Source: Ectocarpus siliculosus
Lineage: Eukaryota > Sar > Phaeophyceae > Ectocarpales > Ectocarpaceae
DNA: 64,000 bases
Direction: 5' to 3'
Assembly (NCBI GenBank): GCA_000310025.1
Contig: FN648672.1
Location: 1 to 64,000, forward strand
This document shows positions 13,261 to 43,841 of the stretch, piece after piece; the stretch's first letter is position 1, and each line of letters begins with the position of its first letter. A program made the position numbers and the translations under genes. The notes below the pieces were generated by a model, which did not search any database, had not been told where the DNA came from, and worked only from the letters and a program-made list of their open reading frames with translations.

Positions 13261-13355
13261 AGGAGAGGGGACAGCTACAAATACATTTCCCCACCGGTAG
13301 TAGGGCATCGATGAACGTGAGGCATCACACAAGTCCTCTACGGAGTGCCACCCAC

Positions 13356-16300
13356 CGTAACATGCCGAATCGACATCTTGGCAATCGTAGCCATTGATGC
13401 CGCATTCGTTGGCGCCCCCCTGGATATAGCCGAACGGGAAGCAAGAGAAGGTGCTACAAACATCATCGGGATGACACGTACTTTGCTGACATCGAGGATA
13501 CGATCAGTGGCATACTGCAGGCCACGACGTTGGGGAGACCACAACATGACCATCGACATCCACCAATCCACCACCAACCGGAAGCTCAACACCCGGTACG
13601 CCACTTTCACGAACGAAATCAACGCTTTGCGATCGTCCTCACATCCACGCAGTCGCAGGAGCAGCAATCGCCCCCATCATATCCGCATTCCGCGTTGTTG
13701 TTGTCTGCGAGCGAACCACAAACCGAACAGAGCGAACAGGGCCGTCGCAATGGGATGTGGAACACAGTGGACCTGCCTTATTGCATATCTCCATGATCCA
13801 TCGTTCCATCGCTCACGCGGTCCCACTCTCACTGCTGCACTATCTGGTGTGTGGTGGGATCGCTCCGATGACCAGACGCCAAGGCCTTTCGGCCCGATGA
13901 GCAACGAGTAAAGTGAGAGTGTGTCTGGGGAAGGGACTACTTGCTACAAGAGTAGTCTAATCTAAGGCACCCAAAGCCATGATCACACACACACCGCGCA
14001 GAACAACTGTATGCTGTGCACGACAAGTAGGCAGGCCCGCGACATGGATATGGATGCATTGGCACCTGCACATGATCAACCTGTACAGTAGGGTGCACTC
14101 TCGGAGTCTTCCCTTGGGGGCGGGGGAGGTGCCGCTACCTTGTCCAAAGTCGCAAAGAATATCCCAAGATATTGGTAGACGTCAGAGAGAAGACACGTTG
14201 GGGCCGAAATCCATGGTGATCGGGTTGCAGATACAGTTGTGTTGCTCTTGATGTTGTTGTTGTTGTTGTTTTCGTTGTCTTCACAGTCAAACCTGTCCCG
14301 TTCTCTCTGCCCAGCTTCTTCTGTCTGTACAAGTCTAACACTTGACGGGGTCGATTCCGTGGTCACAGCTAACTTACCCTACAAACGTATACGAAAACAA
14401 AATGGACCCGAGGGTCTGCAAGCCAATAAAAGTCAACGACGGCTAGTCTAGGCCACTCCGCTCGCCTCTACACGCTATGCGAGGTAACCCTAGATTGGAA
14501 AAAGATAATACAAAGAAAAAGGAAAAGAAAAAGAAAAAGAAAAAGAAGAAAAGGAAGAGAGCAGATGGAGAGAAGGGAAAGAGAAGGAGAAAGACACAGA
14601 CAGAGAAAGACACAGCGACAGACAACAAACAAACAATCAGAACAACACAAAAACAACACAAGACGAAGCCGGCCACTCGACACAGCCCATGCACGTCATC
14701 GCTCGCGGGGGATTGGTGCAATGGTGCTGTGCCGGGGGGGGGGGGAAGGGGTAAGTCCAGCAAGGGGTTCAATTCGGCACTGTGGTTTGCGCCACTCGGT
14801 CCGCCTCTTCGCGTTTCCTCCCTTTCCTCGCCGTCTCGTCCGCCTGCTGTACCCCTCCCGCCCCCGTGGTTGTTGACGTGTCCGTGTTGTTGTCGGGCTT
14901 CTTGTCTCGTTCGAGCGCTCGTTGTCGGCTAGCCTCCTCTTCCTTCTTGTGCCAGGAGGCCATGAATCTCTTAGCTCCCTGCAGTACCCCTGTATGCCAC
15001 GGTACCCCCCGGTCCACCTTCGCTGCTTCCATCCACGTTGATTCGTGGCTCCGAACAAGCATGGTTCGGCGTCCGTAGACCCGTGCTCTGCTTCGAACAT
15101 CTTCATGTCGTCCTTCAGGTACATCTGCCAGTTTTGCTCTGGTTTCCCCCTGCCTGGGCCCTCCCCACCCACCAGGTCGCCAAGCATCACCCGTCTCGGG
15201 AGTTGGCCTTGAGTCGGAACGGCGGTGCGTTCGGCCTGTCAAAGAGCTCCTGGCCATATCTCCTGATGCAAGCCCACGCTGTTCTGCTCCGGGAATTGAT
15301 CTCCCGGGTGAGGTCGCCATGTTCGTTGATGAGGCCACCTAGGTACCGGAAATCAGTCGTCTGGGCGTACCTCTGCCCTGCTGCCTCGATGATCAGCGGT
15401 GGCGGCGGGGGGGGCGGTTGTGTTGTTGTCTGCTTCTCCTTCGCGCGCATCAGGAGCATCTCCGTCTTCTTCTCCAATACCGTCCGCCCGAACTCCCCGA
15501 ACGCCTCCACGATGACGGTCATAGGTCTCGCCAGTCCTTCGGCAGACCTCGATACGACGCCGGCGTCATCGGCATACAGCATCCCCCAAACCGCCCTCCG
15601 CACTCGGTCAAGTGGCGTCCTCGCCCTCGCTGCCGTCTCCTCCTCCAGGTGCACGAGGTCCTGCAGAATAACATCATCCTCGCTGAATCGCATGGCAACG
15701 ACCTCGATGACCGCGGGGAAGAAGATATTGACCGGCAGTGGGGACAGCACACACCCCATGTGTGACCAAGAGCCAGGCCGAAAACTCGCCGTCGTCTATG
15801 CGCACCCGGGCCCGCATTCCGTCGTGGAATCGGCGGATGACGGCGATCATCTCCTCAGGGATCTCGGCCCGGCCCTGGCCAGGACCTTCAACAGCAGCCC
15901 TCGGTCCACCGAATCATACGCCTTCTTCAGGTCGACGAAGCACATGTACAGTGGTATTCTCCTTCTCCTCCCCAACTCCTGGAGTCGACGCACGACGAAC
16001 AGCATGTCGATGGTGGATCGCCCAGGTCGGAACCCGCATTGTTCCTCCGGGAGGATGTTGTTGGTTTCGCAGAAGGTGCTTAGGCGGTTGGTGATGATAT
16101 TGATGGGGACCTTGCGTACGTGAGATAGGGGCGAGATCCTCCTGAAGTTGTCGCAGTTGGACCGGTCACCCTTCTTGTACAACACCTTGATAAAGGTTGC
16201 GTCCTTCCACTCTTGGGGGATCTCTCCCCCGTTCCACACCCCAACGAGGATGTTACGGAGGTGCTCCAGGACGATGGGTTCCTCGTCGTCGTCGTCAATC

Positions 16301-18842
16301 TTGAGCAACTCTGCAGGGAGGGAGTCATTGCCGGGTCCCTTCCCGTTCTGCAGTCCTTTCGTTGACCGTTCCACTTCCTCGAGATCTGGCACCGCTCCCA
16401 ACCATCCAGCGGCACGTGTCTTCGGCCCCTCTGCACCCAGTTATTTGACGATGTCTGGGTTCAGGGTGGGGGACTTAGTGTTGAGGAGGGTGCCGAAGAA
16501 TCTCGCCCATCGCTGGAGGATGTCGTTCTTTCTCCGGAGTAGCACGCCATTCTCGTCCGCAACGGGCTGCTGTCCTCCCGCTGGTCTCCCCCTGAGCCCC
16601 ACTGATCTCTTGAGGTGTTGGTAGAGCCCTCGCATGTCGCGATCCTTGTAGATCGCTTCGAGTTCCGTCACATATCTGTCCAGGTGGGCAAATATGCCCG
16701 TTTTGACTGCTGCGGCCACTCCGTTACGTGCTGCTTTGAGGGCCCTCCACAATGTTGTGTTCAACTTGTCCTTGATCGCTCGGCGCGCTTCCCGCAGTTT
16801 GGTGAGGGCCTCCTCCAATGCTACTCTTGTCTCAGGGCTCTCGCACCATTCCTGCGTGCGTCGTCTCCGCGGTTCCTCGTGTAGTATCGCCCTCGCCGCT
16901 TCGAGGAGAGCATTGGTGAACTCGGTCGCCTCCTCCGGGGTGGTGGTCGCTCGTTCGCCCTGCTGTTGGTCGAGGTTGAGGAGGAACCGCGTAGTCACGT
17001 CCCATCGCGTTGCTGCGACCTGCAGTTCCCGTCGGTCGAACTGCTTCTGTTTCGGTTTGGTCCGGACTGCTCGGTTGTGGGCGAGCCTGCCACCGAGCTT
17101 GACGATGGCTATCACCATGTTGTGGTCTGAGTCCGCCTTGACTGGGTATACCGGCTGGGGGATGACAACCATGTTAGACACTCGGCCGCGGTGTACCTGC
17201 CGAGTTAGAATGTAGTCGAGGCGCGATCGGTCGGCCCCTGACGCACCGTTGTAGGTGTGCCATATTCCGCCCTTGCGTGTCTCGAGGAACGTGTTCGCGA
17301 GTGCTAGCTTGTTTTCTGCTGCGAAGGTCAGCAGTAGTCTGCCATTCTCATTGAGCTCATCACGCCCGTGTATTCCCATGACGCCGTCGTCCTCCCCATC
17401 CATCCTCTCTCCCGTCCGAGCATTGGCGTCCATAAGGATATACACGCACTCTTTGGAAGGAATCCTCCGCACGAGACTGTCAAGTTTTCCCCAGAACTCT
17501 GTCTTGCTGTCAGCGGCAGCGACCTTGGTTGGGGCGTACGCCGCAACGAAGTTGACAGCTCCGCGGTGGCCTGTCATCTCAAACCTCATGGCCATGAGGC
17601 GTTCATTGACATAGTTCGTGGTGAAAGTGGAGGTCTTGCATATTGACTCTTCAACGGCTATTCCCATACCATGCACATTACGCTTCTCCGTACCACAGCA
17701 CAACACTCGGAAACCCGCTGCTGCGAGCTCCGTTTGACCTGGCCTTCTGGTGTCCTGCAGCCCTACCACCGATCGCTGCCTCGTGAAGAATGCTGTAGGC
17801 TCGCCCGTACCCGTTCTTCCCGTTTACAGCCAGAGTACGCACATTCCAGGTAGTAAGAAGTCGACCGCTGTCCCTCTCGGGCGGTGCGTGTTGCTCTCTT
17901 AGCCCGCCTACGCTTCGCCTGTCCCCTCCTTTTCTTCCTTCTTGCCCTCTCTTTTTGTCGTTGCTTTATTCTTGGCGGGCTCTCTCGAGCTAACGTACTA
18001 GTTACCGCGGTGCTTGCCGTTTATCCCAGCGAGTTGTCTTGTTCCGGAGCGGTGCGGCCCTCCAGCTCTGGACCCTGTCCTTTCCCCTCTCTGGTGCATA
18101 CCCCCACGATGGACACCGTGTTCTCTGCTGCTGCATGGCCCCGGTGTCCAAGCCGGGGTCTGGATTCAGTCAAATTTGCAGCTACCCAAGTCGGCTAGGT
18201 CGCGAGCTACCCCGATCTTACGACAGCGGTAGTTCCCGGCCGCCAAACCCAAGATCCCCTTCTGATCAGTGCTAGGGACTGTGTATCCGTCTTTGTTGGG
18301 TGGTGTTTCGAGGTCTAATTCCACTTACGGACCTCGGTCCACCCCAGCAGGGAGGGGGGCAGGCCGGGGGGAGGAGTAGCAGTTACAGGTATTTGACCCC
18401 TTCCTTCAGAATCAATCAACCTTCGCGCTGTGTGGAACTCTGTTGTCCGACCACAGATGTAGGATGTTGTTGCTCTGCGTTGTTTTCTTTCTCTTGAGTA
18501 GCACTTTCCTAAGCCGACTCACACAGATCCCAAGCACACACGATCGCCGGATCGTACACACACAGAACAGAAGGGGACATGCCTCGGCATAAAGCCCAAG
18601 TCTTCCATGGCGTCGCATCATAGTACCTGACGACGCCGGTAACCATGGTCAACCACTATCGCACGTCTACCTCCAAATACAGTAGCGGTAGACATTAAAT
18701 GTGAGACAACCCGCGCCAAGGTACAGGCTACACATCAGTGTCGTTGCCACCTGCACAATGGCCAGGGGGTGCCAAACGAACAGCAGTTCATGTAGCTCAC
18801 CTTCGTCACACCAGCCGTCAGATATGAAGTCTCCGACGCATC
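13356..18842 (-). CDS. LNR module 1 (3'-most, LINE in intron)
   Basis: Exons are alpha 18801-18842, beta 13643-13704 and gamma 13356-13419. The peptide is [14 protein letters not shown], then [12 protein letters not shown] with DCCSCDCVD, then [13 protein letters not shown] with QDVDSACYG. The alpha-beta intron is 5096 bp and carries LINE copy A. The beta-gamma intron is 223 bp, slightly shorter than the 238-246 bp of the others. Gamma ends in phase 1 at a normal donor (ACG|GTGGGT), so at least one more exon should follow below 13356. I could not identify it. Confidence 0.8.
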
Positions 18843-21800
18843 CTGTAAGCGTTAGCGACGTGCGATTTGGGGGGTTGTCAGGGCTTCGCCAACTATATCG
18901 GCAACCGAGCAGCGACAGATGTCACGCAAATCATGCCAGCGTCAATCGTAAGAACGATTTCCCTCCACCCTGGTGACTATGCTGTCGTGCACGCGTGTAA
19001 GCAATCCCTTTTCTCCCTCTGAACTGCGAGCGTGAGCTTCAACAGAGTGGCACCAGCTACAGTGTTCCTATCCAACGGACACTGGGTGGTCGACAATCGC
19101 CGGACCAACTCACGTTCTATGTGAATGACAATAATGAAAACAGCGAACAAACTTGTCGTGTGGACTACGTCGACCGTTGAGGCCTCTACGGAGTGCCACC
19201 CACCGTAACATGCCGAATCGACATCTTGGCAATCGTAGCCATTGAAGCCGCATTCGTAGAAGCCCCCCTGGATACAGCCAAACGAGAAGCAAGAGAAGGT
19301 GCTACAAACATCATCGGGATGAGACACGTACTTTGCTGGCATCGAGGATACGATCATTGGCGTTCTACTGAACGCCACGACGTTGGGGGAACTGTTGTGA
19401 TGCATCGCAAAACGTAACCATGGACATCCGCCAATCCACAACCAACCGGAAGCTCAACACCCGGTAGGTAGGCAACTTCCACGAACAAAATCAACCCTAG
19501 CGATCGTCCTCACATCCACGCAGTCGCAGGAGCAGCAATCGCCCCCATCATATCCGCATGCAACGACGTTGTTCACTGCGAGCGAACCACAAACCGAACA
19601 GAGCGAACAGGGCCGTCGCAATGGGATGTGGAACACAATAGAACTGGCCAGTCGCATATCTCCACGATACATCGTTCCATCGCTCACGCGGTCCCACTCT
19701 CACTGCTGCACTATCTGGCGTGTGGTGGGGTCGCTCCGATGACCAACTGCCACGGCCTCTCGGCCCGATGAGCAACGAGTAAAGTGAGAGCGCGTCTGGG
19801 GAAGGGACTACTTCCTTTAAGTCTAGTCTAAGGCAACCAAGCCATGATCACACACACACCGCGCCCAACAAGTGCATGTTGGACACGACAAAAGGCAGGC
19901 CCGCGACATGGATATGGGTGCCTTGGCACCTGCACATGGTCAACCTGTACGATAGTGTGCACTCTCACAGCCTTCCCTTGGGGGCGGGGGAGGTGCCGCT
20001 ACCTTGTCCAAAGTCGCACAGAATATTCCAAGATGGCAGACGCCAGAGAGGAGACACGGTGGGCCCGCGATCGATGGTGGTCGGGTTGCAGATACAGTAG
20101 TGCAACGGTGTTTGACCCCTTCCTTTAGAATCAATCAACCTACGAGCTGTGTGAAACTCTCTTGTCCGACCACAGGTGCAGGGTGTTGTTGCTCTGCGTT
20201 GTTCTCTTTCTCTTGATTAACGCTTCCCAAGCCGACTCACACAGATCCCAACCACACATGATCGCTGGATCGTACGCACACTGAATAGAAGGGCACATGC
20301 CTCGGCATGAAACCCAAGTCTTGCATGACGTCACATCATAGCACCTGACGATGCCAAGTAACCATGGTCAACCACTATCACACGTCTACCTTCAAACACC
20401 ATACCAGTACACAAAACCCGCGCCAAGGTGCAGGATACACATCAGTGTCGTTGCCACCTGCACAATGGCCAGAGGTTGCCAAACGAACAGCAATTCATGT
20501 AACTCACCATCGTTACAAAAGCCGTCAGAAATGCCGTCAGGATCGCATCCTGTAAGCGTTAACGACGTGCGATGTGGGGGGTTGTCAGGGCTTCGCCAAG
20601 TATATCGGCGACCGAGCAGCGAGAGGTATCAACCAAATCACGCCAGCGCCCGCCAGCGACAATCAAATGAACCGTTCTCCCAAGAGCAAGGCTCTCCTTG
20701 TTAGGTAGTCCTGGTAGGGTTCACGAGGGTGGACCCTGGGCATCGACGGACATGGTCCGAGCAATCCAGCGAGGATGCACGATCAACAGCGGAGCATCAA
20801 GGCCACGAGGCAGGCCCCCGCACCCAGCGATTGAGGCGGACTGTGATGCACCGGAAGGAAGCAACCTCCTACCATGCCAACCGTCAAGCGTGATGTTGAG
20901 AAGCACGATGACCACTACACCACTAGTCAGCCGCTGACTAGTGGTGTAGTGGTCATCGTGCTTCTCAACCAAAGTCAAGGCCCGTGTCCGGTCTGGCTTT
21001 GCAGACACGAACACAGCCCCCCCCCCCACCAGTCAGCCCTGACTAGTGGTGTAGCGGTCATCGTGCTTCTCAACGTTAAGGACTATCGGGAGTGCCACCC
21101 ACCGTAACATGCCGAATCGACATCTTGGCAATCGTAGCCATTGCTGCCGCATTCGTTGACGTCCCCCTGGATATAGCCGAACGAGAAGCAAGAGAAGGTG
21201 CTACAAACATCATCGGGGTGAGACACGTACTTTGCTGACATCGAGGATACGATCATTGGCGTTCTACTGAACGCCACGACGTTGGGGGAATTCTTGTGAT
21301 GCATCGCAAAACGTAACCATGGACATCCACCAATCCACCACCAACGTAAAGCTCAACAAACGGTAGGTAGGCAACTTCCACGAACAAAATCAACCCTAGC
21401 GATTGTCCTCACATCGACGCAGTCGCACTCGCAACAATCGCCCCCATCATATCCGCATTCCGCGTTGTTGTTGTCTGCGAGCGAACCACAAACCGAACAG
21501 AGCGAACAGGGCCGTCGCAATGCGATGTGGAACACAATAGAACTGGCCAGTCGCATATCTCCACGATACATCGTTCAATCGCTCACGCGGTCCCACTCTC
21601 ACTGCTGCACTATCTGGTGTGTGGTGGGATCGCTCCGATGACCAGACGCCAAGGCCTTTCGGCCCGATGAGCAACGAGTAAAGTGAGAGCGCGTCTGGGG
21701 AGGGAACTATTTGCTAGAAGAGTAGTCAAATCTAAGGCAACCAAGGCCATGATCACACACACACCGCGCTCAACAAGTGCATGCTGGGCGCGACAAGTAG

Positions 21801-24800
21801 GCAGGCCCGCGACATGGATATGGATGCATTGGCACCTGCACATGGTCAACCTGTACGGTAGTGTGCACTCTCGGAGTCTTCCCTTGGGGGCGGGGGAGGT
21901 GCCGCTACCTTGTCCTAAGTCGCAAAGAATATCCCAAGATATTGGTAGACGTCAGAGAGAAGACACGTTGGGGCCGAAATCCATGGTGATCAGGTTGCAC
22001 ATACAGTGTTGTTGTTTTTGATGATGATGTTGTTGTTGTTGTTATCTCCACAGTCGAACCTGTCCCGTTTTCTCTGCCCGGTATTTCTTCTGTCTGGACC
22101 AGTCCAACACTTGACGGGGCCGATTCCCGTGGTCACAGGCTAACTTAACCTACAAAGGTATTCGAAAACAAAATGGACCCGAAGGGTCCGCAAGCCAATC
22201 AAAGTTAACGACGGCTAGTCTAGGCCACTCCGCTCGCCTCTACACGCTATGCGAGGTAACCCTAGATGGGAAAAAGATAATACAAAGAAAAAGGAAAAGA
22301 ACAAGGAAAAGAAAAAGAAGAAAAGGAAGAGAGCAGATGGAGAGAAGGGAAAGAGAAGGAGAAAGACACAGACAGAGAAAGACACAGCGACAGACAACAA
22401 TTCATCAGAACAACACAAAAACAACACAAGACAAAGCCGGCCACTCGAGCAGCCCATGCACGTCATCGCTCGCGGGGGATTGGTGCAATGGTGCTGTGCC
22501 GGGGGGGGGGGGAGGTAAGTCCAGCAAGGGGTTCAATTCGGCACTGTGGTTCGCGCCACTCGGTCCGCCTCTTCGCGTTTCCTCCCTTTCCTCGCCGTCT
22601 CGTCCGCCTGTTGTACGCCTCCCACCCCCGTGGTTGTTGACGTGTCCGTGTTGTTGTCGGGCTTCTTGTTTCGTTTGAGCGCTCGTTGTCGGCTAGCCTC
22701 CTCTTCCTTCTTGTGCCAGGAGGCCATGAATCTCTTAGCTCCCTGCAGTACCCCTGTATGCCACGGTACCCCCCGGTCCACCTTCGCTGCTCCCATCCAA
22801 GTTGTTCCGGGACTCCGAGAAAGCATGGTTCGGCGTCCGTAGATCCGTGCTCTGCTTCGAACATCTTCATGTCGTTCTTCAGGTACATCTGCCAGTTTTG
22901 CTCTGGTTCCCCCCTGCCTGGGCCCTCCCCACCCACCAGTTCGCCAAGCATCACCCATTTCGGGAGTTGGCCTTGAGTCGGAACGGCGGTGCGTTCGGCC
23001 TGTCAAAGAACTCCTGGCCATACCTCCTGATGCAAGCCCACGCTGTTCTGCTCCGGTAGTTGATCTCCCGGGTGAGGTCGCCATGTTCGTTGATGAGGCC
23101 ACCTAGGTACCGGAAATCAGTCGTCTGGGCGTACCTCTGCCTTGCTGCCTCGATGATCAGCGGCGGCGGCGGGGGGGCGCGGTTGTGATGTTGTCTGCTT
23201 CTCCTTCGCGCGCATCAGGAGCATCTCCGTCTTCTTCTCGGATACCGTCCGCCCGAACTCCCCGAACGCCTCCACGATGACGGTCATAGGTCTCGCCAGT
23301 CCTTCGGCAGACCTCGATACGACGCCGGCGTCATCGGCACACAGCATCCCCCAAACCGCCCTCCGCACTCGGTCAAGTGGTGTCCTCGCCCTCGCTGCCG
23401 TCTCCTCCTCCAGGCACACGGGGTTCTGCAGAATAACATCATCCTCGCCGAGGCGAATGGCAACGACCTCGATGACCGCGGGGAAGAAGATATTGAACGG
23501 CAGTGGGGACAGCACACATCCCATGTGTGACCAAGAGCCAGGCCGAAAACTCGCCGTCGTCCGTGCGCACCCGGGCCCGCATTCCGTCGTGGAATCGGCG
23601 GATGACGGCGATCATCTCCTCAGGGATCCCGGCCCGGCCCTGGCCAGGACCTTCAACAGCAGCCCTCGGTCCACCGAATCATAAGCCTTCTTCAGGTCGA
23701 CGAAGCACATGTAGAGTGGTACTTTCCTTCTCCTCCCCAACTCCTGGAGTCGACGCACGACGAACAGCATGTCGATGGTGGATCGCCCAGGTCGGAACCC
23801 GCATTGTTCCTCCGGGAGGATGTTGTTGGTTTCGCAGAAGGTGCTTAGGCGGTTGGTGATGATATTGATGGGGACCTTGCGTACGTGAGATAGGGGCGAG
23901 ATCCTCCTGAAGTTGTCGCAGTTGGACCGGTCACCCTTCTTGTACAACACCTTGATAAAGGTTGCGTCCTTCCACCTTGGGGGATCTCTCCCCCGTTCCA
24001 CACCCCAACGAGGATGTTACGGAGGTGCTCCAGGACGATGGGTTCCTCGTCGTCGTCGTCGATCTTGAGCAACTCTGCAGGGAGGGAGTCATTGCCGGGT
24101 GCCTTCCAGTTCTGCAGTCCTTTCGTTGCCCGTTCCACTTCCTCGAGATCTGGCACCGCTCCCAACCATCCAGCGGCACGTGTCTTCGGCCCCTCTGCAC
24201 CCAGTTATTTGATGATGTCTGGGTTCAGGGTGGGGGACTTAGTGTTGAGGAGGGTGCCGAAGAATCTCGCCCATCGCTGGAGGATGTCGTTCTTTCTCCG
24301 GAGTAGCACGCCATTCTCGTCCGCAACGGGCTGCTGTCCTCCCGCTGGTCTCCCCCTGAGCCCCACTGATCTCTTAGGGTGTTGGTAGAGCCCCCACATG
24401 TCGCGATCCTTGTAGATCGCTTCGAGTTCCGTCACATATCTGTCCAGGTGGGCAAATATGCCCGTTTTGACTGCTGCGGCCACTCCGTTACGTGCTGCTT
24501 TGAGGGCCCTCCACAATGTTGTGTTCAACTTGTCCTTGATCGCTCGGCGCGCTTCCCGCAGTTTGGTGAGGGCCTCCTCCAATGCTACTCTTGTCTCAGG
24601 GCTCTCGCACCATTCCTGCGTGCGTCGTCTCCGCGGTTCCTCGTGTAGTATCGCCCTCGCCGCTTCGAGGAGAGCATTGGTGAACTCGGTCGCCTCCTCC
24701 GGGGTGGTGGTCGCTCGTTCGCCCTGCTGTTGGTCGAGGTTGAGGAGGAACCGCGTAGTCACGTCCCATCGCGTTGCTGCGACCTGCAGTTCCCGTCGGT

Positions 24801-27800: not shown

Positions 27801-27888
27801 TATCAGTAGACGTCAGAGAGAAGACACGTTGGGGCCGAAATCCATGGTGATCAGGTTGCACATACAGTTGTGTTGTTTTTGATGATGA

Positions 27889-27955
<67 letters not shown>

Positions 27956-33900: not shown

Positions 33901-36798
33901 ATGTGAATGACAATAATGAAAAACAGCGAACAAACTTGTCGTGTGGACTACGTCGACCGTTGAGGCCTCTACGGAGTGCCACCCACCGTAACATGCCGAA
34001 TCGACATCTTGGCAATCGTAGCCATTGAAGCCGCATTCGTAGAAGCCCCCCTGGATACAGCCAAACGAGAAGCGAGAGAAGGTGCTACAAACATCATCGG
34101 GATGAGACACGTACTTTGCTGGCATCGAGGATACGATCATTGGCGTTCTACTGAACGCCACGACGTTGGGGGAACTCTTGTGATGCATCGCAAAACGTAA
34201 CCATGGACATCCACCAATCCACAACCAACCGGAAGCTCAACACCCGGTAGGTAGGCAACTTCCACGAACAAAATCAACCCTAGCGATCGTCCTCACATCC
34301 ACGCAGTCGCAGGAGCAGCAATCGCCCCCATCATATCCGCATGCAACGACGTTGTTCACTGCGAGCGAACCACAAACCGAACAGAGCGAACAGGGCCGTC
34401 GCAATGGGATGTGGAACATAATAGAACTGGCCAATCACATATCTCCACGATACATCGTTCCATCGCTCACGCGGTCCCACTCTCACTGCTGCACTATCTG
34501 GCGTGTGGTGGGGTCGCTCCGATGACCAACTGCCACGGCCTCTCGGCCCGATGAGCAACGAGTAAAGTGAGAGTGGGTCTGGGGAAGGGACTACTTCCTT
34601 TAAGTCTAGTCTAAGGCGACCAAGTCATGATCACACACACACCGCGCCCAACAAGTGCATGTTGGACACGACAAAAGGCAGGCCCGCGACATGGATATGG
34701 GTGCCTTGGCACCTGCACATGGTCAACCTGTACGATAGTGTGCACTCTCACAGCCTTCCCTTGCAGGCGGGGGGAGGTGCCGCTACCTTGTCCAAAGTCG
34801 CACAGAATATTCCAAGATGGCAGACGCCAGAGAGGAGACACGGTGGGCCCGCGATCGATGGTGGTCGGGTTGCAGATACAGTAGTGCAACGGTGTTTGAC
34901 CCCTTCCTTTAGAATCAATCAACCTACGAGCTGTGTGAAACTCTCTTGTCCGACCACAGGTGCAGGGTGTTGTTGCTCTGCGTTGTTCTCTTTCTCTTGA
35001 CTAACGCTTCCCAAGCCGACTCACACAGATCCCAACCACACATGATCGCCGGATCGTACGCACACTGCCTCGGCATGAAACCCAAGTCTTGCATGACGTC
35101 ACATAATAGCACCTGACGATGCCAAGTAACCATGGTCAACCACTATCACACGTCTACCTTCAAACACCATACCAGTACACAAAACCCGCGCCAAGGTGCA
35201 GGATACACATCAGTGTCGTTGCCACCTGCACAATGGCCAGAGGTTGCCAAACGAACAGCAATTCATGTAACTCACCATCGTTACAAAAGCCGTCAGACAT
35301 GCCATCAGGATCGCATCCTGTAAGCGTTAACGACGTGCGATGTGGGGGGTTGTCAGGGCTTCGCCAAGTATATCGGCGACCGAGCAGCGAGAGGTATCAA
35401 CCAAATCATGCCAGCGCCCGCCAGCGACAATCGAATGAACCGTTCTCCCAAGAGCAAGACTCTCCTTGTTAGGTAGTCCTGGTAGGGTTCACGACGGTGG
35501 ACCCTGGGCATCGACGGACATGGTCCGAGCAATCCAGCGAGGATGCACGATCAACAGCGGAGCATCAACGCCACGAGGCAGGCCCCCGCACCCAGCGATT
35601 GAGGCGGACTGTGATGCACCGAAAGGAAGCAACCTCCTACCACGCCAACCATCAAGCGTGATGTTGAGAAGCACGATGACCACTACACCACTAGTCAGCA
35701 GCTGACTACTGGTGTAGTGGTCATCGTGCTTCTCAACCAAAGTCAAGGCCCGTGTCCGGTCTGGCTTTGCAGACACGAACACAGCCACCCCCCCACCAGT
35801 CAGCCCTGACTAGTGGTGTAGCGTTCATCGTGCTTCTCAACGTTAAGGACTATCGGGAGTGCCACCCACCGTAACATGCCGAATCGACATCTTGGCAATC
35901 GTAGCCATTGCTGCCGCATTCGTTGACGTCCCCCTGGATATAGCCGAACGGCAAGCAAGAGAAGGTGCTACAAACATCATCGGGGTGAGACACGTACTTT
36001 GCTGACATCGAGGATACGATCATTGGCGTTCTACTGAACGCCACGACGTTGGGGGAATTCTTGTGATGCATCGCAAAATGTAAACATTGACATCCACCAA
36101 TCCACCACCAACCTAAAGCTCAACAAACGGTAGGTAGGCAACTTCCACGAACAAAATCAACCCCAGCGATCGTCCTCACATCGACGCAGTCGCACTCGCA
36201 ACAATCGCCCCCATCATATCCGCATTCCGCGTTGTTGTTGTCTGCGAGCGAACCACAAACCGAACAGAGCGAACAGGGCCGTCGCAATGGGATGTGGAAC
36301 ATAATAGAACTGGCCAGCCGCATATCTCCACGATACATCGTTCAATCGCTCACGCGGTCCCACTCTCACTGCTGCACTATTTGGTCTGTGGTGGGATCGC
36401 TCCGATGACCAGACGCCAAGGCCTTTCGGCCCGATGAGCAACGAGTAAAGTGAGAGTGTGTCTGGGGAAGGGACTACTTCCTTTAAGTCTAGTCTAAGGC
36501 AACCAAAGCCATGATCACACACACACCGCGCCCAACAAGTGCATGCTGGGCGCGACAAGTAGGCAGGCCCGCGACATGGATATGGATGCATTGGCACCTG
36601 CACATGGTCAACCTGTACGGTAGTGTGCACTCTCGGAGTCTTCCTTTGGGGGCGGGGGAGGTGCCGCTACCTTGTCCTAAGTCGCAAAGAATGTCCCAAG
36701 ATATTGGTAGACGTCAGAGAGAAGACACGTTGGGGCCGAAATCCATGGTGATCAGGTTGCACATACAGTTGTGTTTTTGATGATGATGATGATGATGA

Positions 36799-36829
<31 letters not shown>

Positions 36830-39800
36830 ATCTCCACAGTAAAACCTGTCCCGTTTTCTCTGCCCGGTATTTCCTGTCTGTACTAGTCCAACACTTGATG
36901 GGGCCGATTCCCGTGGTCACAGGCTAATTTTACCTACAAAGGTATTCGAAAACAAAATGGACCCGAAGGGTCCGCAAGCCAATCAAAGTTAACGACGGCT
37001 AGTCTAGGCCACTCCGCTCGCCTTTCCACGTTATGCGAGGTAACCCTAGAGGGGAAAAGGATATTCCAAAGAAAAAGGAAAAGACCAGGGAAAAGAAAAA
37101 GAAGAAAAGGAAGAGAGCAGATGGAGAGAAGGGAAAGAGAAGGAGAAAGACACAGACAGAGCAAGACACAGCGACAGAAAACAAATCATCAGAACAACAC
37201 AAAACCAACACAAGACAAAGCCGGCCAATCGAGCAGCCCATGCACGTCATCGCTCGCGGGGGGTTGGTGCAATGGTGCTGTGCCGGGGGGGGGGGGGAGG
37301 GGGTAAGTCCAGCAAGGGGTTCAATTCGGCACTGTGGTTCGCGCCACTCGGTCCGCCTCTTCGCGTTTCCTCCCTTTCCTCGCCGTCTCGTCCGCCTGCT
37401 ATACCCCTCCCGCCCCCGTGGTTGTTGCCGTGTCCGTGTTGTTGTCGGGGTCTTGTTTCGTTTGAGCGCTCGTTGTCGGCTAGCCTCCTCTTCCTTCTTG
37501 TGCCAGGAGGCCATGAATCTCTTAGCTCCCTGCAGTACCCCTGTATGCCACGGTACCCCCCGGTCCACCTTCGCTGCTTCCATCCAAGTTGATTCGTGGC
37601 TCCGAACAAGCATGGTTCGGCGTCCGTAGACCCGTGCTCTGCTTCGAACATCTTCATGTCGTCCTTCAGGTACATCTGCCAGTTTTGCTCTGGTTTCCCC
37701 CTGCCTGGGCCCTCCCCACCCACCAGGTCGCCAAGCATCACCCGTCTCGGGAGTTGGCCTTGAGTCGGAACGGCGGTGCGTTCGGCCTGTCAAAGAACTC
37801 CTGGCCATACCTCCTGATGCAAGCCCACGCTGTTCTGCTCCGGTAGTTGATATCCCGGGTGAGGTCGCCATGTTCGTTGATGAGGCCACCTAGGTACCGG
37901 AAATCAGTCGTCTGGGCGTACCTCTGCCCTGCTGCCTCGATGATCAGCGGTGGCGGCGGGGGGGGCGGTTGTGTTGTTGTCTGCTTCTCCTTCGCGCGCA
38001 TCAGGAGCATCTCCGTCTTCTTCTCGGATACCGTCCGCCCGAACTCCCCGAACGCCTCCACGATGACGGTCATAGGTCTCGCCAGTCCTTCGGCAGACCT
38101 CGATACGACGCCGGCGTCATCGGCACACAGCATCCCCCAAACCGCCCTCCGCACTCGGTCAAGTGGTGTCCTCGCCCTCGCTGCCGTCTCCTCCTCCAGG
38201 CACACGAGGTTCTGCAGAATAACATCATCCTCGCTGAATCGCATGGCAACGACCTCGATGACCGCGGCGAAGAAAATATTGACCGGCAGTGGGGGCAGCA
38301 CACACCCCATGTGTGACCAAGAGCCAGGCCGAAAACTCGCCGTCGTCCATGCGCACCCGGGCCCGCATTCCGTCGTGGAATCGGCGGATGACGGCGATCA
38401 TCTCCTCAGGGATCTCGGCCCGGCCCTGGCCAGGACCTTCAACAGCAGCCCTCGGTCCACCGAATCATAAGCCTTCTTCAGGTCGACGAGGCACGTGTAG
38501 AGTGGTATTTTCCTTCTCCTCCCCAACTCCTGGAGTCGACGCACGACGAACAGCATGTCGATGGTGGATCGCCCAGGTCGGAACCCGCATTGTTCCTCCG
38601 GGAGGATGTTGTTGGTTTCGCAGAAGGTGCTTAGGCGGTTGGTGATGATCTTGATGGGGACCTTGCGTACGTGAGATAGGGGCGAGATCCTCCTGAAGTT
38701 GTCGCAGTTGGACCGGTCACCCTTCTTGTACAACACCTTGATGGTTGCGTCCTTCCACTCTTGGGGGATCTCTCCCCCGTTCCACACCCCAACGAGGATG
38801 TTACGGAGGTGCTCCAGGACGATGGGTTCCTCGTCGTCGTCGTCGATCTTGAGCAACTCTGCAGGGAGGGAGTCATTGCCGGGTCCCTTCCCGTTCTGCA
38901 GTCCTTTCGTTGACCGTTCCACTTCCTCGAGATCTGGCACCGCTCCCAACCATCCAGCGGCACGTGTCTTCGGCCCCTCTGCACCCAGTTATTTGATGAT
39001 GTCTGGGTTCAGGGTGGGGGACTTAGTGTTCAGGAGGGTGCCGAAGAATCTCGCCCATCGCTGGAGGATGTCGTTCTTTCTCCGGAGTAGCACGCCATTC
39101 TCGTCCGCAACGGGCGGCAGTCCTCCCGCTTGTCTCCCCCTGAGCCCCACTGATCTCTTGAGGTGTTGGTAGAGCCCTCGCATGTCGCGATCCTTGTAGA
39201 TCGCTTCGAGTTCCGTCACATATCTGTCCAGGTGGGCAAATATGCCCGTTTTGACTGCTGCGGCCACTCCGTTACGTGCTGCTTTGAGGACCCTCCACAC
39301 TGTTGTGTTCAACTTGTCCTTGATCGCTCGGCGCGCTTCCCGCAGTTTGGTGAGGTCCTCCTCCAATGCTACTCTTGTCTCAGGGCTCTCGCACCATTCC
39401 TGCGTGCGTCGTCTCCGCGGTTCCTCGGGTAGTATCGCCCTCGCCGCTTCGAGGAGAGCATTGGTGAACTCGGTCGCCTCCTCCGGGGCGGTGGTCGCTC
39501 GTTCGCCCTGCTGTTGGTCGAGGTTGAGGAGGAACCGCGTAGTCACGTCCCATCGCGTTGCTGCGACCTGCAGTTCCCGTCGGTCGAACTGCTTCTGTTT
39601 TGGTTTGGTCCGGACTGCTCGGTTGTGGGCGAGCCTGCCACCGAGCTTGACGGTGGCTATCACCATGTTGTGGTCTGAGTCCGCCTTGACTGGGTATACC
39701 GGCTGGGGGATGACAACCATGTTAGACACTCGGCCGCGGTGTACCTGCCGCGTTAGAATGTAGTCGAGGCGCGATTGGTCGGCCCCTGACGCACCGTTGT

Positions 39801-42800
39801 AGGTGTGCCATATTCCGCCCTTGCGTGTCTCGAGGAACGTGTTCGCGAGTGCTAGCTTGTTTTCTGCTGCGAAGGTCAGCAGTAGTCTGCCATTCTCGTT
39901 GAGCTCATCACGCTCGTGTATTCCCATGACGCCGTCGTCCTCCCCATCCATCCTCTCTCCCGTCCGAGCATTGGCGTCCATAAGGATATACACACACTCT
40001 TTGGAAGGAATCCTCCGCACGAGACTGTCAAGTTTTCCCCAGAACTCTGTCTTGCCGTCAGCGGCAGCGACCTTGGTTGGGGCGTACGCCGCAACGAAGT
40101 TGACAGCTCCGCGGTGGCCTGTCATCTCAAACCTCATGGCCATGAGGCGTTCATTGACATAGTTCGTGGTGAAAGTGGAGGTCTTGCATATTGACTCTTC
40201 AACGGCTATTCCCATACCATGGACATGACGCTTCTCCGTACCACAGCACAATACTCGGAAACCCGCTGCTGCGAGCTCCGTTTGACCTGGCCTTCTGGCC
40301 TCCTGCAGCCCTACCACCGATCGCTGCCTCGTGAAGAATGCTGTAGGCTCGCCCGTACCCATTCCTCCCGTTGCTGTAGGCTCGCCCGTATCCATTCTTC
40401 CCGTTTACAGCCAGAGTCCGCACATTCCAGGTAGTAAGAAGTCGACCGCTGTCCCTCTCGGGCGGTGCGTGTTGCTCTCTTAGCCCGCCTACGCTTCGCC
40501 TGTCCCCTCCTTTTCTTCCTTCTTGCCCTCTCTTTTTGTCGTTGTTTTATTCTTGGCGGGCTCTCTCGGGGTAACGTACTAGTTACCCCGGTGCTTGCCG
40601 TTTATCCCAGCGAGTTGTCTTGTTCCGGAGCGGTGCGGCCCTCCAGCTCTGGACCCTCTCCTTTCCCCTCTCTGGTGCATACCCCCACGATGGACACCGT
40701 ATCCTCTGCTGCTGCATGGCCCCGGTGTCCAAGCCGGTGTCTGGATTCAGTCAAATTTGCAGCTACCCAAGTCGGCTAGGTCGCGAGCTACCCCGATCTT
40801 ACGATAGAGGTGGTTCCCGGCCGCCAAACCCAAGATCCCCTTCTGATCAGTGCTAGGGACTGTGCATCCGTCTTTGTTGGGTGGTGTTTCGAGGTCTAAT
40901 TCCACTTACGGACCTCGGTCCACCCCAGCAGGGAGGGGGGCAGGCCGGGGGGAGGAGTAGCAGATACAGGTATTTGACCCCTTCCTTCAGAATCAATCAA
41001 CCTTCGCGCTGTGTGGAACTCTGTTGTCCGACCACAGATGTACGATGTTGTTGCTCTGCGTTGTTGTCTTTCTCTTGAGTAGCACTTTTTCCTAAGACGA
41101 CTCACACAGATCCCAAGCACACACGATCGCCGGATCGTACGCACACAGAACAGAAGGGGACATGCCTCGGCATAAAGCCCAAGTCTTCCATGGCGTCGCA
41201 TCATAGTACCTGACGACGCCGGTAACCATGGTCAACCACTATCGCACGTCTACCTCCAAATACAGTAGCAGTAGACATTAAATGTGAGACAACCCGCGCC
41301 AAGGTACAGGCTACACATTCGTTGCCACCTGCACAATGGCCAGGGGGTGCCAAACGAACAGCAGTTCATGTAGCTCACCTTCGTCACACCAGCCGTCAGA
41401 TATGAAGTCTCCGACGCATGCTGTAAGCGTTAACGACGTGCGATTTGGGGGGTTGTCAGGGCTTCGCCAACTATATCGGCAACCGAGCAGCGACAGATGT
41501 CACGCAAATCATGCCAGCGTCAATCGTATGAACGATTTCCCTCCACCCTGGTGACTATGCTGTCGTGCACGCGTGTAAGCAATCCCTTTTCTCCCTCTGA
41601 ACTGCGAGCGTGAGCTTCAACAGAGTGGCACCAGCTACAGTGTTCCTATCCTCCAACGGACACTGGGTGGTCGACAATCGCCGGACCAACTTCGAATGAC
41701 AATAATGGAATACAGCGAAAACCAAACTTGTCGTGTGGACTACGTCGACTGTTGAGGCCCCTACGGAGTGCCACCCACCGTAACATGCCGAATCGACATC
41801 TTGGCAATCGTAACCACCGGCGCCACAGGTCGATTCTCCCTGGTGTTAACCAAACGGCAAGCAAGAGAAGGTGCTACAAACATCATCGGGATGAGACACG
41901 TACTTAGTGAACGTCGAGGATACTGTCATTGGCGTTCTAGTCTAGGCCACCACGTTGGGGGGATGCCTGTGATGCATCGCACAACACGACCATTGACATC
42001 AACTACTAACCGGAAGCTCAACATACGGTAGGTAGGCAACTTCCACGAACAACATCAACCCTAGCAATAGTCCTCACATCGACACAGTCGCACTCGCAAC
42101 AATCGCCCCCATCATATCCGCACTCCGCGTTGTTGTTGTCTGCGAGCGAACCACAAACAGAACAGAGCGAACAGGGCCGTCGCATTGGGATGTGGAATAC
42201 GTGCGAACCAGAATGGATCTGGCTTACTTACACTTCCACAATCCGCCAGTCACAGAGGAAACGGGACGGTCACGTAGAGATGCGCACGTCCTACGGTCAG
42301 ATGTGCCAAACACTAAGCATCCCCACGGTCTACCGTGCACAGTCACCCGTGTCCTGGGAAGCTTGGCGAGTCCACCTTTTGACGGAATGTATTTAGGTAC
42401 AACACGCCTTCATATCCCATGGTTTAGCTGTCCCACCCTCACTACACCCGGTGTGTGATGGGATCGCACTTTCGGAAGGACGAGCAACGGGACGTGCGAC
42501 AGCTTAACGCTTCTATGGCAGACCGTGCCAAGGCAATGAGAACGTGCGTGGGTGCCCATGGTTCAGCACCCTCAACGGGCAACGGATGTGCTGACACACA
42601 CCAAACATGCATGGGTACTCCCAGCGACCCTTTGAAGGCGGGACAAGGAGCCGCTACGAATACCACAGTCTCATGGAGGCCTCAGTAGATTTTTTTTCAT
42701 CAGAATATAACATTCCGGACGAAATTGTGAAATATGAGCCACGTAGCGGCCATGGTTGGTGGAGATCGGCTTGCAGATGCGCTAGACGTAATCGTGAGAC

Positions 42801-42950
42801 AACGCGCACCAAGGCACGGGCTACACATCAGCGTCGTCAACGTGTGCACCATCGACAGGGGTCACCATAAGAGCACTAATACATGTCACTCACCAGGGTC
42901 ACACAAGCCGTCCGAATTGTAGCATACAATTCCACCGCAATCGGGGTATT
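13356..42950 (-). CDS. LNR (Notch-type) repeat gene, seven tandem three-exon modules, partial
   Basis: Twenty-one short exons on the minus strand splice, by direct reading, into one continuous frame of about 395 codons. The order is (alpha-beta-gamma) x7, from 42950 down to 13356. Alpha is 42 nt (57 in module 7), beta 62 nt and gamma 64 nt (61 in module 7). Borders are AAG|GTGAGC, GAT|GTGAGG and ACG|GTGGGT for donors, and cttacag|, ctcgcag| and atccag| for acceptors. Phases run 1-1, 1-0, 0-1, so a whole module is phase 1 to 1. Each module encodes a Cys-rich repeat: [19 protein letters not shown], then DCC(E/S)CDCVD, then a tail ending [13 protein letters not shown]. The Asn/Asp-rich NNN...GYDGGDC core is the hallmark of LNR calcium-binding domains of Notch, although one of the six canonical Cys is absent. 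LNR proteins are usually extracellular or membrane-bound. The start codon, signal peptide and terminal exons were not found. Four introns of 5.1-6.2 kb hold LINEs. Confidence 0.8.
14769..16440 (-). pseudogene. Reverse transcriptase domain of LINE copy A
   Basis: Pieces in three frames carry the RT motifs in order. The first is 16401-15847 with [22 protein letters not shown] and [13 protein letters not shown] (motif A). The second is 15759-15187 with GCVLSPL (motif B), [10 protein letters not shown] (motif C) and [13 protein letters not shown]. The third is a C-terminal piece with [10 protein letters not shown] and [18 protein letters not shown]. Breaks lie after motif A (~15860), just before motif B where the usual QGLRQ is missing, and in the C-terminus. 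The step from FRLKA straight to LPRRVMLG implies loss of most of the thumb (size inferred from family layout). Copy A alone keeps the tyrosine of YADD. Confidence 0.85.
16441..17769 (-). pseudogene. EEP (APE-type) endonuclease domain of LINE copy A
   Basis: This is a 442-codon open frame that would nick target DNA in the intact element. Motifs by residue are VGLQDTRR near 2-9, YAP 78-80, DANA 114-117, RLDYIL 183-188 and SDH 214-216, in the order of exonuclease-endonuclease-phosphatase domains. The first catalytic strand (TWNVRTL, 17831-17851) lies just upstream in another frame, so the N-terminus is frameshifted. The frame ends at a TAA (16441-16443) after NPDIVK. Beyond it the same frame runs on into the reverse transcriptase, so the two were one polyprotein. 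Confidence 0.85.
19204..20549 (-). CDS. LNR module 2 (no LINE)
   Basis: Exons are alpha 20508-20549, beta 19514-19575 and gamma 19204-19267. The peptide is [14 protein letters not shown], then [12 protein letters not shown] with DCCSCDCVD, then [13 protein letters not shown] with QDVDSACYG. The alpha-beta intron is 932 bp and preserves the pre-insertion LINE site near 20088-20097. The changed codon junction (GAT G joined to TG) still gives an open frame, so substitutions at the splice junction have been compatible with coding. Confidence 0.8.
20682..20890. repeat. Dispersed segment P, copy 2
   Basis: It is related to 10975-11270 and 43842-44215 (gagcaaggctctccttg, tggaccctgggcatcga, acccagcgattgaggcg). 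It is cut off by the palindromic element. Confidence 0.75.
20895..21074. mobile_element. Palindromic mini-element (MITE/foldback-like), copy 1
   Basis: A 36-bp arm starting gttgagaagcacgatgacca (20895-20930) is followed, after only three bases, by its perfect reverse complement (20934-20969). A third arm in the same inverted sense lies at 21039-21074 with one mismatch. Between arms 2 and 3 are ~57 bp of unrelated sequence, a C-run, and a remnant caccagtcag that looks like the inner end of a lost fourth arm. There is no coding capacity and no clear target duplication. The left flank matches segment P and the right flank matches the intron before exon gamma, so the element sits on a rearrangement junction. 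Confidence 0.75.
21103..26607 (-). CDS. LNR module 3 (LINE in intron)
   Basis: Exons are alpha 26566-26607, beta 21413-21474 and gamma 21103-21166. The encoded peptide is [14 protein letters not shown], then [12 protein letters not shown] with DCCECDCVD, then [13 protein letters not shown] with QDVDSACYG. This is the clearest place to see the LNR core rebuilt across the alpha-beta junction: GAC GAA G joined to AC AAC AAC AAC. The alpha-beta intron is 5091 bp and contains LINE copy B. The 553-bp intron between gamma 3 and alpha 2 contains the palindromic element at 20895-21074 and a copy of segment P. Confidence 0.82.
22533..24204 (-). pseudogene. Reverse transcriptase domain of LINE copy B
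   Basis: The fingers are split between 24165-23845 and 24001-23612 by a private 2-bp loss near 23975 (ccaccttggg where the other copies have ccactcttggg). The palm is 23524-23117 with GCVLSPL and [10 protein letters not shown], so YADD has become CADD. The proline tract is frame-broken by a change in G-run length. The C-terminal piece runs over 23102-22533. It shares the motif A/B breaks and the thumb loss with copy A. Confidence 0.83.
24205..25578 (-). pseudogene. EEP endonuclease domain of LINE copy B
   Basis: This is a 457-codon frame ending at the same TAA after NPDIIK. The motifs YAP, DANA, RLDYIL and SDH are present. The upstream out-of-frame first strand reads TWHVRTL, so the catalytic Asn is changed to His as in copy C. 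The start shown (MGTGEPTA) is only the first Met in the shifted frame. Confidence 0.83.
26973..33624 (-). CDS. LNR module 4 (LINE plus nested LINE in intron)
   Basis: Exons are alpha 33583-33624, beta 27280-27341 and gamma 26973-27036. Alpha encodes [14 protein letters not shown], beta [12 protein letters not shown] then DCCSCDCVD, and gamma [13 protein letters not shown] then QDVDSACYG. The alpha-beta intron is 6241 bp, the longest in the locus, because LINE copy C carries a further ~1.1 kb insertion. Despite this load, all three exons are open with intact borders. Confidence 0.8.
27890..27955. repeat. (TTG)n microsatellite, expanded LINE tail
   Basis: About 22 perfect TTG units form the 3' tail of LINE copy C ((CAA)n on the element strand). 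The other copies have roughly 5 to 10 units. Confidence 0.95.
28431..29516 (-). mobile_element. Nested 5'-truncated LINE of a second family
   Basis: About 1.09 kb is inserted in the 3' UTR of LINE copy C and is absent from copies A, B and D. Both sides carry gcc followed by a G-run, so the target site was the poly-G and is duplicated. On the minus strand the insert encodes the region after the RT palm ([20 protein letters not shown], then [20 protein letters not shown]). A C-terminal zinc knuckle follows, [17 protein letters not shown] (within 28583-28852). One in-frame TGA (28853-28855) separates the two parts and looks like a CGA change. The 3' end is aatgagtac without poly-A. The clade is not resolved, but it differs from the host LINE. 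Confidence 0.85.
29550..31222 (-). pseudogene. Reverse transcriptase domain of LINE copy C
   Basis: The fingers piece is 31183-30629 with [13 protein letters not shown] and a changed motif A ([14 protein letters not shown]; copies A and B have CFVDL). The palm is 30541-30134 with GCVLSPL and [10 protein letters not shown], broken in the proline tract. The C-terminal piece is 30119-29550. It ends at the G-run into which the second LINE inserted. Confidence 0.83.
31223..32596 (-). pseudogene. EEP endonuclease domain of LINE copy C
   Basis: This is a 457-codon frame. The motif VVGLQEARR keeps the expected Glu, whereas copies A and B read QDT. YAP, DANA, RLDYIL and SDH are present. The first strand upstream is out of frame and reads TWHVRTL. 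The frame ends at the shared TAA after NPDIIK. Confidence 0.83.
33987..35317 (-). CDS. LNR module 5 (no LINE)
   Basis: Exons are alpha 35276-35317, beta 34297-34358 and gamma 33987-34050. Alpha encodes [14 protein letters not shown], beta [12 protein letters not shown] then DCCSCDCVD, and gamma [13 protein letters not shown] then QDVDSACYG. The 917-bp alpha-beta intron is the empty version of the LINE site (gcagatacag near 34872-34881). It is near-identical to module 2 and differs from it by Met for Ile in alpha. Confidence 0.8.
35450..35660. repeat. Dispersed segment P, copy 3
   Basis: It is nearly identical to copy 2, with the same truncation against the palindromic element. Confidence 0.75.
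35663..35841. mobile_element. Palindromic mini-element, copy 2
   Basis: It has the same layout and flanks as copy 1: arms at 35663-35698, 35702-35737 (one mismatch) and 35806-35841. It is a duplicate carried along with the 14.8-kb block and not an independent insertion. Confidence 0.75.
35870..41420 (-). CDS. LNR module 6 (LINE in intron)
   Basis: Exons are alpha 41379-41420, beta 36180-36241 and gamma 35870-35933. Alpha encodes [13 protein letters not shown], preceded by Ala from the split codon. Beta has the CCECDC form. Gamma encodes [13 protein letters not shown] then QDVDSACYG. The 5137-bp alpha-beta intron contains LINE copy D. Exon and intron details (the acgcatg-ctgtaag acceptor and the CCECDC beta) pair this module with module 3, 14.8 kb away. 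Confidence 0.8.
36779..36830. repeat. (GAT)n-(TTG)n compound microsatellite, LINE tail
   Basis: About seven GAT units are followed by about ten TTG units, as the 3' tail of LINE copy D. Confidence 0.95.
37300..38988 (-). pseudogene. Reverse transcriptase domain of LINE copy D
   Basis: The fingers piece is 38949-38398, where [11 protein letters not shown] has become [10 protein letters not shown] by an in-frame loss. Motif A has the CLVDL form shared with copy C. The palm is 38310-37738, open for 190 codons, with GCVLPPL and [10 protein letters not shown]. The C-terminal piece follows in another frame, with a further single-base shift near 37447. The motif A/B breaks and the thumb loss are shared with the other copies. 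Confidence 0.83.
38989..40395 (-). pseudogene. EEP endonuclease domain of LINE copy D
   Basis: This is a 468-codon frame, longer than the others because of the 33-bp duplication ([19 protein letters not shown]). QEARR, YAP, DANA, RLDYIL and SDH are present. The first strand upstream reads TWNVRTL, with the catalytic Asn kept but out of frame. It ends at the shared TAA. Confidence 0.83.
41779..42950 (-). CDS. LNR module 7 (5'-most, most divergent)
   Basis: Exons on the minus strand are alpha 42894-42950 (57 nt), beta 42078-42139 (62 nt) and gamma 41779-41839 (61 nt). Alpha is longer than in other modules and encodes [19 protein letters not shown], which adds a cysteine. Beta encodes [21 protein letters not shown], written here as [12 protein letters not shown] then DCCECDCVD. 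Gamma encodes [12 protein letters not shown] then QDVDSACYG and is three bases shorter than the others. The introns are 754 bp (no LINE) and 238 bp. All borders are GT/AG and the phases match the other modules. Its divergence makes it either the oldest module or a differently constrained N-terminal repeat. No further module was found upstream, although intron similarity continues to about 43240. Confidence 0.8.
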
Positions 42951-43841
42951 CTGTAAGCGTCAGCGACATGTGATTTGGGGGTTGTCAGGGTTTCGCAAAG
43001 TATATCAGCGACTGAGCAGCGAGAGGTATCACGCAAATAACGCCAGAGACAATCGTCTTAGCTATCCTCCATACTGGTAAGTGTTTTATCGTGCACACGG
43101 GCCAACAATCTCGTTACTCCCTTTGAAGTGCGAGTTTGAGCTTCGAAGTTCAACGGTGGCACCAGCTCTATTGTTCCTATCCAATGGACACTGGGGGGAC
43201 GACAATCGCTGCACAAACTCCAACTAACCTCAACGCATATGTTTGGTTTGCACCATACAGACCGTTCAGTCTGCCCATTTGGACGACGGCAACGATACCG
43301 TTTCGATAATTGATGCAGCCACGCCTGATATCGAGGCCACAATATTGGCCGGTCAAGAGTATTCCTTAGAGGGTGTTCGGAACGACTCGTAGTCCCCCGA
43401 AATTGAGCCAACGCCTCGCTTTGTCGAGGTTCCAGTCTTCGATGTCTTCGATTTTACACAACATCGTGGTCCTTGCATCAGCTCGGTAATCTAGAGTAGT
43501 ACATGTCCTGGCACGAGTCAATACTGGTTTTGAATGGTCAAGGTCACAATTACTCGGCATGTCACAGGGGACGACAAACCTGTAAGGAGGTCAAAGTAGA
43601 GGTCGGAGGAGAAGTCGGTATAGCAGTAGAAAACGTCGCCCGGAAAGAGACCTGGCCATGGACGAAGATCGTTGAAGGGAAAGCAGCAGACAGGGAGTTG
43701 TTGTCGGTATCGATGTTCGACAGCAAAAGCAGACGCAAAGCCCGCCAGCAAACAGGAGTGTCTTCAACATCGCCAAAGGTTTTGAATGCAAGTCCAATTC
43801 CCAACATGGTTCGGGTGCCTCGTGCCTAAGACATGGGTTGG
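42951..43841. other. Transition region upstream of LNR module 7
   Basis: As far as ~43240 the sequence resembles the intron that precedes each alpha exon in other modules (cctatccaatggacactggg). Beyond that it is unique in the window. No exon preceding alpha 7 could be fixed. Short open stretches exist on both strands at 43260-43560. I cannot assign a product. Confidence 0.5.

Follow-up and report, generated by a model that had tools for sequence, protein, structure and literature searches.

Seven LNR repeats encoded by micro-exons in satellite-rich DNA of Ectocarpus siliculosus: a predicted gene segment enlarged by block duplication

Do the very short open segments scattered along the minus strand of a contig of Ectocarpus siliculosus form part of a gene for an LNR protein, or are they the remains of one, or even a product of the way in which they were joined? 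The window, that is, the whole stretch of DNA analysed (64,000 nt, positions 1 to 64,000 of contig FN648672.1), had been proposed in a preliminary description to contain 21 micro-exons, none longer than 64 nt, which join into one open frame encoding seven LNR repeats, and this arrangement was confirmed. Read on the minus strand from 42950 to 13356, the array was made up of seven cassettes, each with an exon A, an exon B and an exon C of 42-64 nt. The joined exons, 1,188 nt spread over 29,595 nt, gave a single frame of 396 aa without a stop and with 71 cysteines. An AG acceptor and a GT donor bordered each exon (21/21 for both), and the donors were of the types GTGAGG (seven), GTGGGT (seven), GTGAGC (four) and GTGAGT (three); since AG/GT borders were required by the exon pattern, the tally by itself carries no independent weight. 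The previously suggested junctions 42894/42139 and 42078/41839 coincided with exon borders. The exons are given below, with the basis of each one in brackets.

42894..42950, minus strand: unit 1 exon A, 19 residues (BLAST and border pattern)
42078..42139, minus strand: unit 1 exon B, half of the LNR core (BLAST and border pattern)
41779..41839, minus strand: unit 1 exon C, Cys-rich tail (BLAST and border pattern)
41379..41420, minus strand: unit 2 exon A (border pattern)
36180..36241, minus strand: unit 2 exon B (BLAST and border pattern)
35870..35933, minus strand: unit 2 exon C (BLAST and border pattern)
35276..35317, minus strand: unit 3 exon A (border pattern)
34297..34358, minus strand: unit 3 exon B (BLAST and border pattern)
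33987..34050, minus strand: unit 3 exon C (BLAST and border pattern)
33583..33624, minus strand: unit 4 exon A (border pattern)
27280..27341, minus strand: unit 4 exon B (BLAST and border pattern)
26973..27036, minus strand: unit 4 exon C (BLAST and border pattern)
26566..26607, minus strand: unit 5 exon A (border pattern)
21413..21474, minus strand: unit 5 exon B (BLAST and border pattern)
21103..21166, minus strand: unit 5 exon C (BLAST and border pattern)
20508..20549, minus strand: unit 6 exon A (border pattern)
19514..19575, minus strand: unit 6 exon B (BLAST and border pattern)
19204..19267, minus strand: unit 6 exon C (BLAST and border pattern)
18801..18842, minus strand: unit 7 exon A (border pattern)
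13643..13704, minus strand: unit 7 exon B (BLAST and border pattern)
13356..13419, minus strand: unit 7 exon C (BLAST and border pattern)

Exon B measured 62 nt in all seven units, exon A 57 nt in unit 1 and 42 nt in units 2-7, and exon C 61 nt in unit 1 and 64 nt in units 2-7, so that the cassettes were of 180 nt (unit 1) and 168 nt (units 2-7). Introns ranged from 223 to 6,241 nt and interrupted the frame in phase 1 between A and B, in phase 0 between B and C and in phase 1 between C and the next A. All seven units were divisible by three with phase 1 at both ends, as in phase-symmetric modules of class 1-1, and such ends would permit copying by exchange within introns with the frame unbroken.

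When the splice sites were ignored, exon B of unit 1 found seven strong minus-strand matches in the window by BLAST (E about 1e-10 or better) and exon C of the same unit another seven (E about 4e-11 or better). Exon A of unit 1 found itself and six weak minus-strand matches (18-25 nt, E 0.1 to 2) at the right places, and the case for the six short A exons consequently comes chiefly from the border pattern and the alignment of the units. The remaining matches of the unit-1 exons were short or weak, some of them on the plus strand. In the six-frame translation of the window, the motifs CGYDGGDC and CGxxGYDCxD were each present seven times, always on the minus strand.

The proposed LNR identity was borne out by the Pfam Notch/LNR profile (PF00066), which scored 24.8 bits on the joined protein (cut-off 21.2) with seven stretches, the best of them covering profile positions 9-35 of 36 and including the SDGxC...CGYDGGDC core. 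Among three repeats scanned singly, that of unit 7 passed (22.5 bits) and those of units 1 and 3 fell below the cut-off (17.5 and 14.5 bits), and seven shuffles of the unit 7 repeat gave zero Notch matches with Pfam. Two further Pfam families matched the joined protein under their own cut-offs, and a NCBIfam scan of two joined repeats gave nothing above cut-off. The DGxDC core following a cysteine appeared as CGYDGGDC in all seven units; it is the A/B intron that interrupts the LNR core, and exon C contributes the Cys-rich tail. The repeats differed from the profile in that the fourth LNR cysteine was absent, with Asn in its place (CDEDNNNAEC), and in that a conserved tail starting with CxCVD followed outside the profile match. 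The canonical LNR of Notch receptors has six cysteines in three disulphides, whereas four of the six places were occupied in units 2-7, as compared by eye with Notch1 chains. Neither the joined protein nor 10 flanking ORFs contained the EGF, heterodimerisation or ankyrin domains of Notch receptors by Pfam. With four cysteine places occupied, the repeats depart from the canonical six-cysteine LNR.

Among solved structures, the unit 7 repeat was best matched by an LNR of pappalysin-2 (8sl1, E 4.8e-5), and Notch1 and GlcNAc-1-phosphotransferase were further structural relatives. The C-terminal LNR of pappalysin (PAPP-A2) lacks the same fourth cysteine as the repeats of the window. Pappalysin-2 is a metalloprotease, whereas no protease domain was found with the array. 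Two scans of a collection of genome contigs were made: the whole repeat gave no confirmed match, and its A+B part gave two loci (L002 and L003). The second of these, 14 residues within another frame, looked like a chance match and was rejected. The first, on JABHHG010000071.1, a MAG contig named Candidatus Neomarinimicrobiota whose bacterial assignment rests on the deposited binning, encodes an LNR with its Cys-rich tail in an uninterrupted, intron-free frame, 57% identical to the unit 7 repeat. A profile built only from the repeats of the window scored 57.9 bits on it over positions 2-56 (E 2.4e-15 for that genome alone), and a profile that included the L002 sequence itself matched one of 149 genomes of the phylum, namely the L002 genome. 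The open frame (2292-5591, 1,100 aa, with its 3' end beyond the contig) carries an LDL-receptor class A domain (26.1 bits) and two LNR stretches, and differs from the array in having no introns, one such full module and other domains. That the whole module recurs without introns in the same order and spacing speaks for the way in which exons A, B and C were joined, and this match on a bacterially binned contig suggests that LNR and tail may form one old unit. No relatives were found in phages. One viral contig (L001) carried a single LNR (48%), situated among other Cys-rich sequence in a frame open at both ends (2-1138).

These results bear on whether the 21 exons are chance open frames, an artefact of joining by eye. 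The free choice among AG/GT borders and the non-independence of the copies would favour such an artefact, but a curated LNR profile was passed above its cut-off, the seven B and seven C cores were recovered without splice sites, and the whole module recurs in an independent protein outside the window, which makes this explanation hardly credible.

How the array grew could be read from the similarity between its parts. The segment 41786-29520 matched 26980-14736 with 96.9% identity over 12,314 columns (12.3 kb), introns and LINE included, so that unit 2 pairs with unit 5, unit 3 with unit 6, and the first part of unit 4 with that of unit 7. Toward its end the array departed from this pairing, the B-C DNA of unit 4 being 92.8% identical to unit 5 and 87.2% to unit 7, and unit 1 was the most diverged unit across most of its length. 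The presence of LINE sequence at the locus, as already described, was corroborated by a reverse transcriptase match in the one intronic copy scanned (RVT_1, 41.7 bits against a cut-off of 29.6); for the endonuclease, that copy remained under the cut-off (17.4 against 24.5). The LINE occupied the A-B intron in units 2, 4, 5 and 7 and was missing at the matching place in units 3 and 6. The copied blocks and the inserts were localised as follows.

29520..41786, minus strand: block copy 1, which covers unit 2, unit 3 and, from unit 4, exon A with most of the LINE-bearing intron (96.9%)
14736..26980, minus strand: block copy 2, which covers unit 5, unit 6 and, from unit 7, exon A with part of the intron (96.9%)
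36774..40968, minus strand: LINE-bearing insert in the A-B intron of unit 2
27873..33169, minus strand: the same LINE-bearing insert in unit 4, plus an extra insert of about 1.1 kb
22007..26155, minus strand: the same LINE-bearing insert in unit 5 (borders approximate)
14242..18387, minus strand: the same LINE-bearing insert in unit 7 (borders approximate)

The extra insert of about 1.1 kb lay within the unit 4 LINE at 28426-29519 and was missing from units 2 and 7; a frame in it, part of a minus-strand ORF at 28853-30019, may represent the terminal part of a different retroelement. Two LINE pieces had no relatives among viral contigs.

This mode of growth changes the weight of two earlier arguments. 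The intron inside the LNR core does lie at the same point in all seven copies, as had been noted, but because the copies arose by segmental duplication together with their introns, identical positions are to be expected and add little as evidence. Likewise, the statement that 21 open, correctly phased exons would have a negligible probability of arising by accident supposed 21 independent exons and does not hold, since segmental copying leaves far fewer independent observations. It was replaced here by the whole-module match, by a neutral simulation and a permutation, and by contrasts between exons and introns. The matching phase-1 ends of the cassettes also speak for coding.

Units 2-7 contained no stop, no frameshift and no lost cysteine. 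In a neutral simulation along a tree derived from the near introns of units 2-7, which took the place of a version including unit 1 given the poorly matching flank of its exon B, the probability that no copy would suffer a stop, a frameshift or a splice loss was 0.0048, and none of 20,000 runs kept the ten cysteines as well. Permutation of the 32 variable columns gave 0.0005 for the joint lack of stops and retention of cysteines, a value to be read with the clustering of these columns in mind, as the test treats linked changes as independent. Within the 96.9% block, exons differed at 2/378 positions and near introns at 20/1249 (p=0.13), whereas in the B-C part of units 4 and 7 the differences were 4/126 and 39/315 (p=0.002). 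The pooled pairs 2-5, 3-6 and 4-7 gave 6/504 in exons and 59/1564 in near introns (p=0.003), mostly from units 4 and 7; this contrast was then divided, as the 96.9% block does not extend to the B-C part of unit 7. Five of the six exon differences in these pairs change an amino acid, about the neutral ratio. An apparent conservation of exon B between units 1 and 2 (2/62 vs 62/347, p=0.002) was withdrawn; the upstream flank of that exon does not match beyond about 58 nt, and in a position-by-position alignment exon B of unit 1 was no more conserved than its immediate flanks. The contrasts are mixed, and together these data are moderate evidence that the protein was under selection at least until recently.

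The surroundings of the array must be weighed against this. Satellite DNA lay on both sides. Past exon C7 the array stopped after about 58 nt, near 13,298, giving way to DNA with 61-66% identity to an 816-bp satellite. On the upstream side, pieces resembling intron sequence lay at about 43.85-44.2 kb, and from about 44.3 kb onwards the 816-bp satellite took up the rest of the window. A single degenerate 816-bp unit (61-66%) occupied 12461-13298, tandem units of about 816 bp, 60-100% alike and with higher-order spacings of 1.6, 2.5, 3.3 and 4.1 kb, extended over 44260-64000, and a 329-bp satellite (26.8 copies, 93% matches) covered 2-8824. One type of C-to-A intron (78-84% alike) was found in both flanks (10977-11251 and 43845-44198) as well as at 20680-20892 and 35448-35660. 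The intron pieces in the flanks suggest that the array may once have been longer or may share a duplicated flank. No first or last exon was recognised around the array. Pfam scans of two of 26 upstream ORFs (at least 45 aa, around 42890-44400) and eight of 50 downstream ORFs (at least 55 aa, around 8830-13500) gave no family above cut-off, and the window contained no tRNA and no Rfam family at the gathering threshold. A frame at 43591-44028, unjoined to exon A, has by eye a hydrophobic stretch after its ATG.

Such an environment makes a relic in satellite DNA a serious rival. According to it, a fragment of an LNR gene became trapped in satellite-rich DNA, was amplified with its introns and LINE, would no longer be expressed, and would keep intact exons because the copying is recent. 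The flanking 816-bp and 329-bp satellites, the abrupt end of the array together with the lack of a recognised terminal exon, the high similarity of the copies, the LNR-unit intron pieces on both sides and the non-significant contrast within the block are all consistent with it. It is opposed by the simulation, which rarely left all copies intact and never with all their cysteines, and by the greater conservation of the B-C part in units 4 and 7, yet both of these could reflect a constraint that ended recently. We regard a dead array as unlikely on balance, though well worth keeping in mind.

The long introns raise a different alternative, namely that two or more separate short LNR genes have unrecognised terminal exons inside them. 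Introns of up to 6.2 kb are compatible with this, and the block duplication would also be expected from the copying of a whole small gene. However, phase-1 borders were kept on both outer sides in all units, and the long LINE-bearing introns lie within cassettes, from A to B, and not between blocks, so that separate genes appear improbable.

Our preferred reading, to which we assign a probability of roughly two in three, takes the 21 exons to be the repeat-encoding portion of a eukaryotic gene whose Cys-rich product is probably secreted or displayed at the cell surface. The array would be best read as a segment of a predicted, putatively transcribed multi-LNR gene of a known kind. Each three-exon cassette would encode one four-cysteine LNR and a conserved Cys-rich tail; the copying of a block of units, introns and LINE included, left frame, splice borders and cysteines intact. 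The message would be spliced across the long introns, and the first and last exons would lie in sequence that was not recognised or beyond the window. The protein may enter the secretory path, fold around disulphides and calcium and bind a partner, and the loops between cysteines may diversify among repeat types.

As for the divergence between repeat types, exons differed more than near introns between units 2 and 3 (31/168 vs 40/527, p=2e-4) and between units 5 and 6 (30/168 vs 37/532, p=1e-4), and an excess was also seen for units 3 vs 4 (p=0.006) and 4 vs 6 (p=0.04). There was no excess between units 2 and 4 (7/168 vs 12/524, p=0.27), nor in the variable columns of exons B and C against introns in units 2-6 (17/126 vs 31/353, p=0.17), where exon B taken singly gave p=0.02 and exon C p=1. 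Between repeat types, adjacent codons had changed in runs, for example DNNNAEC to VNNVVAC, and the ten cysteines were invariant across units 2-7. Diversifying selection is not claimed, since synonymous differences were raised too and the changes were clustered; one or two ancestral events, or short gene conversion from another LNR exon, are alternatives. We mention as a speculative extension a cassette-built recognition protein, in which the duplication of blocks, by way of long LINE-bearing introns, adds modules of LNR and tail and residues between cysteines diversify faster than neighbouring introns, so that copy number and repeat type might vary between individuals or by alternative splicing.

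LNR genes are already known from stramenopiles. Published work reports 16 Notch-domain genes and no Notch receptor among gamete transcripts of Ectocarpus (PMC3879662), 15 Notch-domain genes in Saprolegnia (PMC3681718), and a table row 'Notch protein' with values of 0 to 18 (PMC5795050). The Ectocarpus and Saprolegnia genes are likened to the array by description, as LNR families in stramenopiles. In brown-algal ROCO genes (PMC11378527), each LRR is encoded by one 72-bp phase-2 exon, with shuffling and alternative splicing. These LRR arrays resemble that of the window in having tandem in-phase exons that enable repeat gain (PMC11378527), and differ from it in that here three exons, with phases 1, 0 and 1, make up each repeat. 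Within the collection of papers searched, none linked brown algae with Notch and LNR, or with the LNR domain.

The array would thus represent, as far as its sequence indicates, LNR repeats of an already known family with a clear mode of growth, and it does not overturn existing knowledge of LNR proteins. It illustrates how repeats can grow when cassettes are copied as a block with their introns. Annotation based on long frames readily overlooks or fragments genes with very short exons and retrotransposon-filled introns, and LNR families may for this reason be under-counted.
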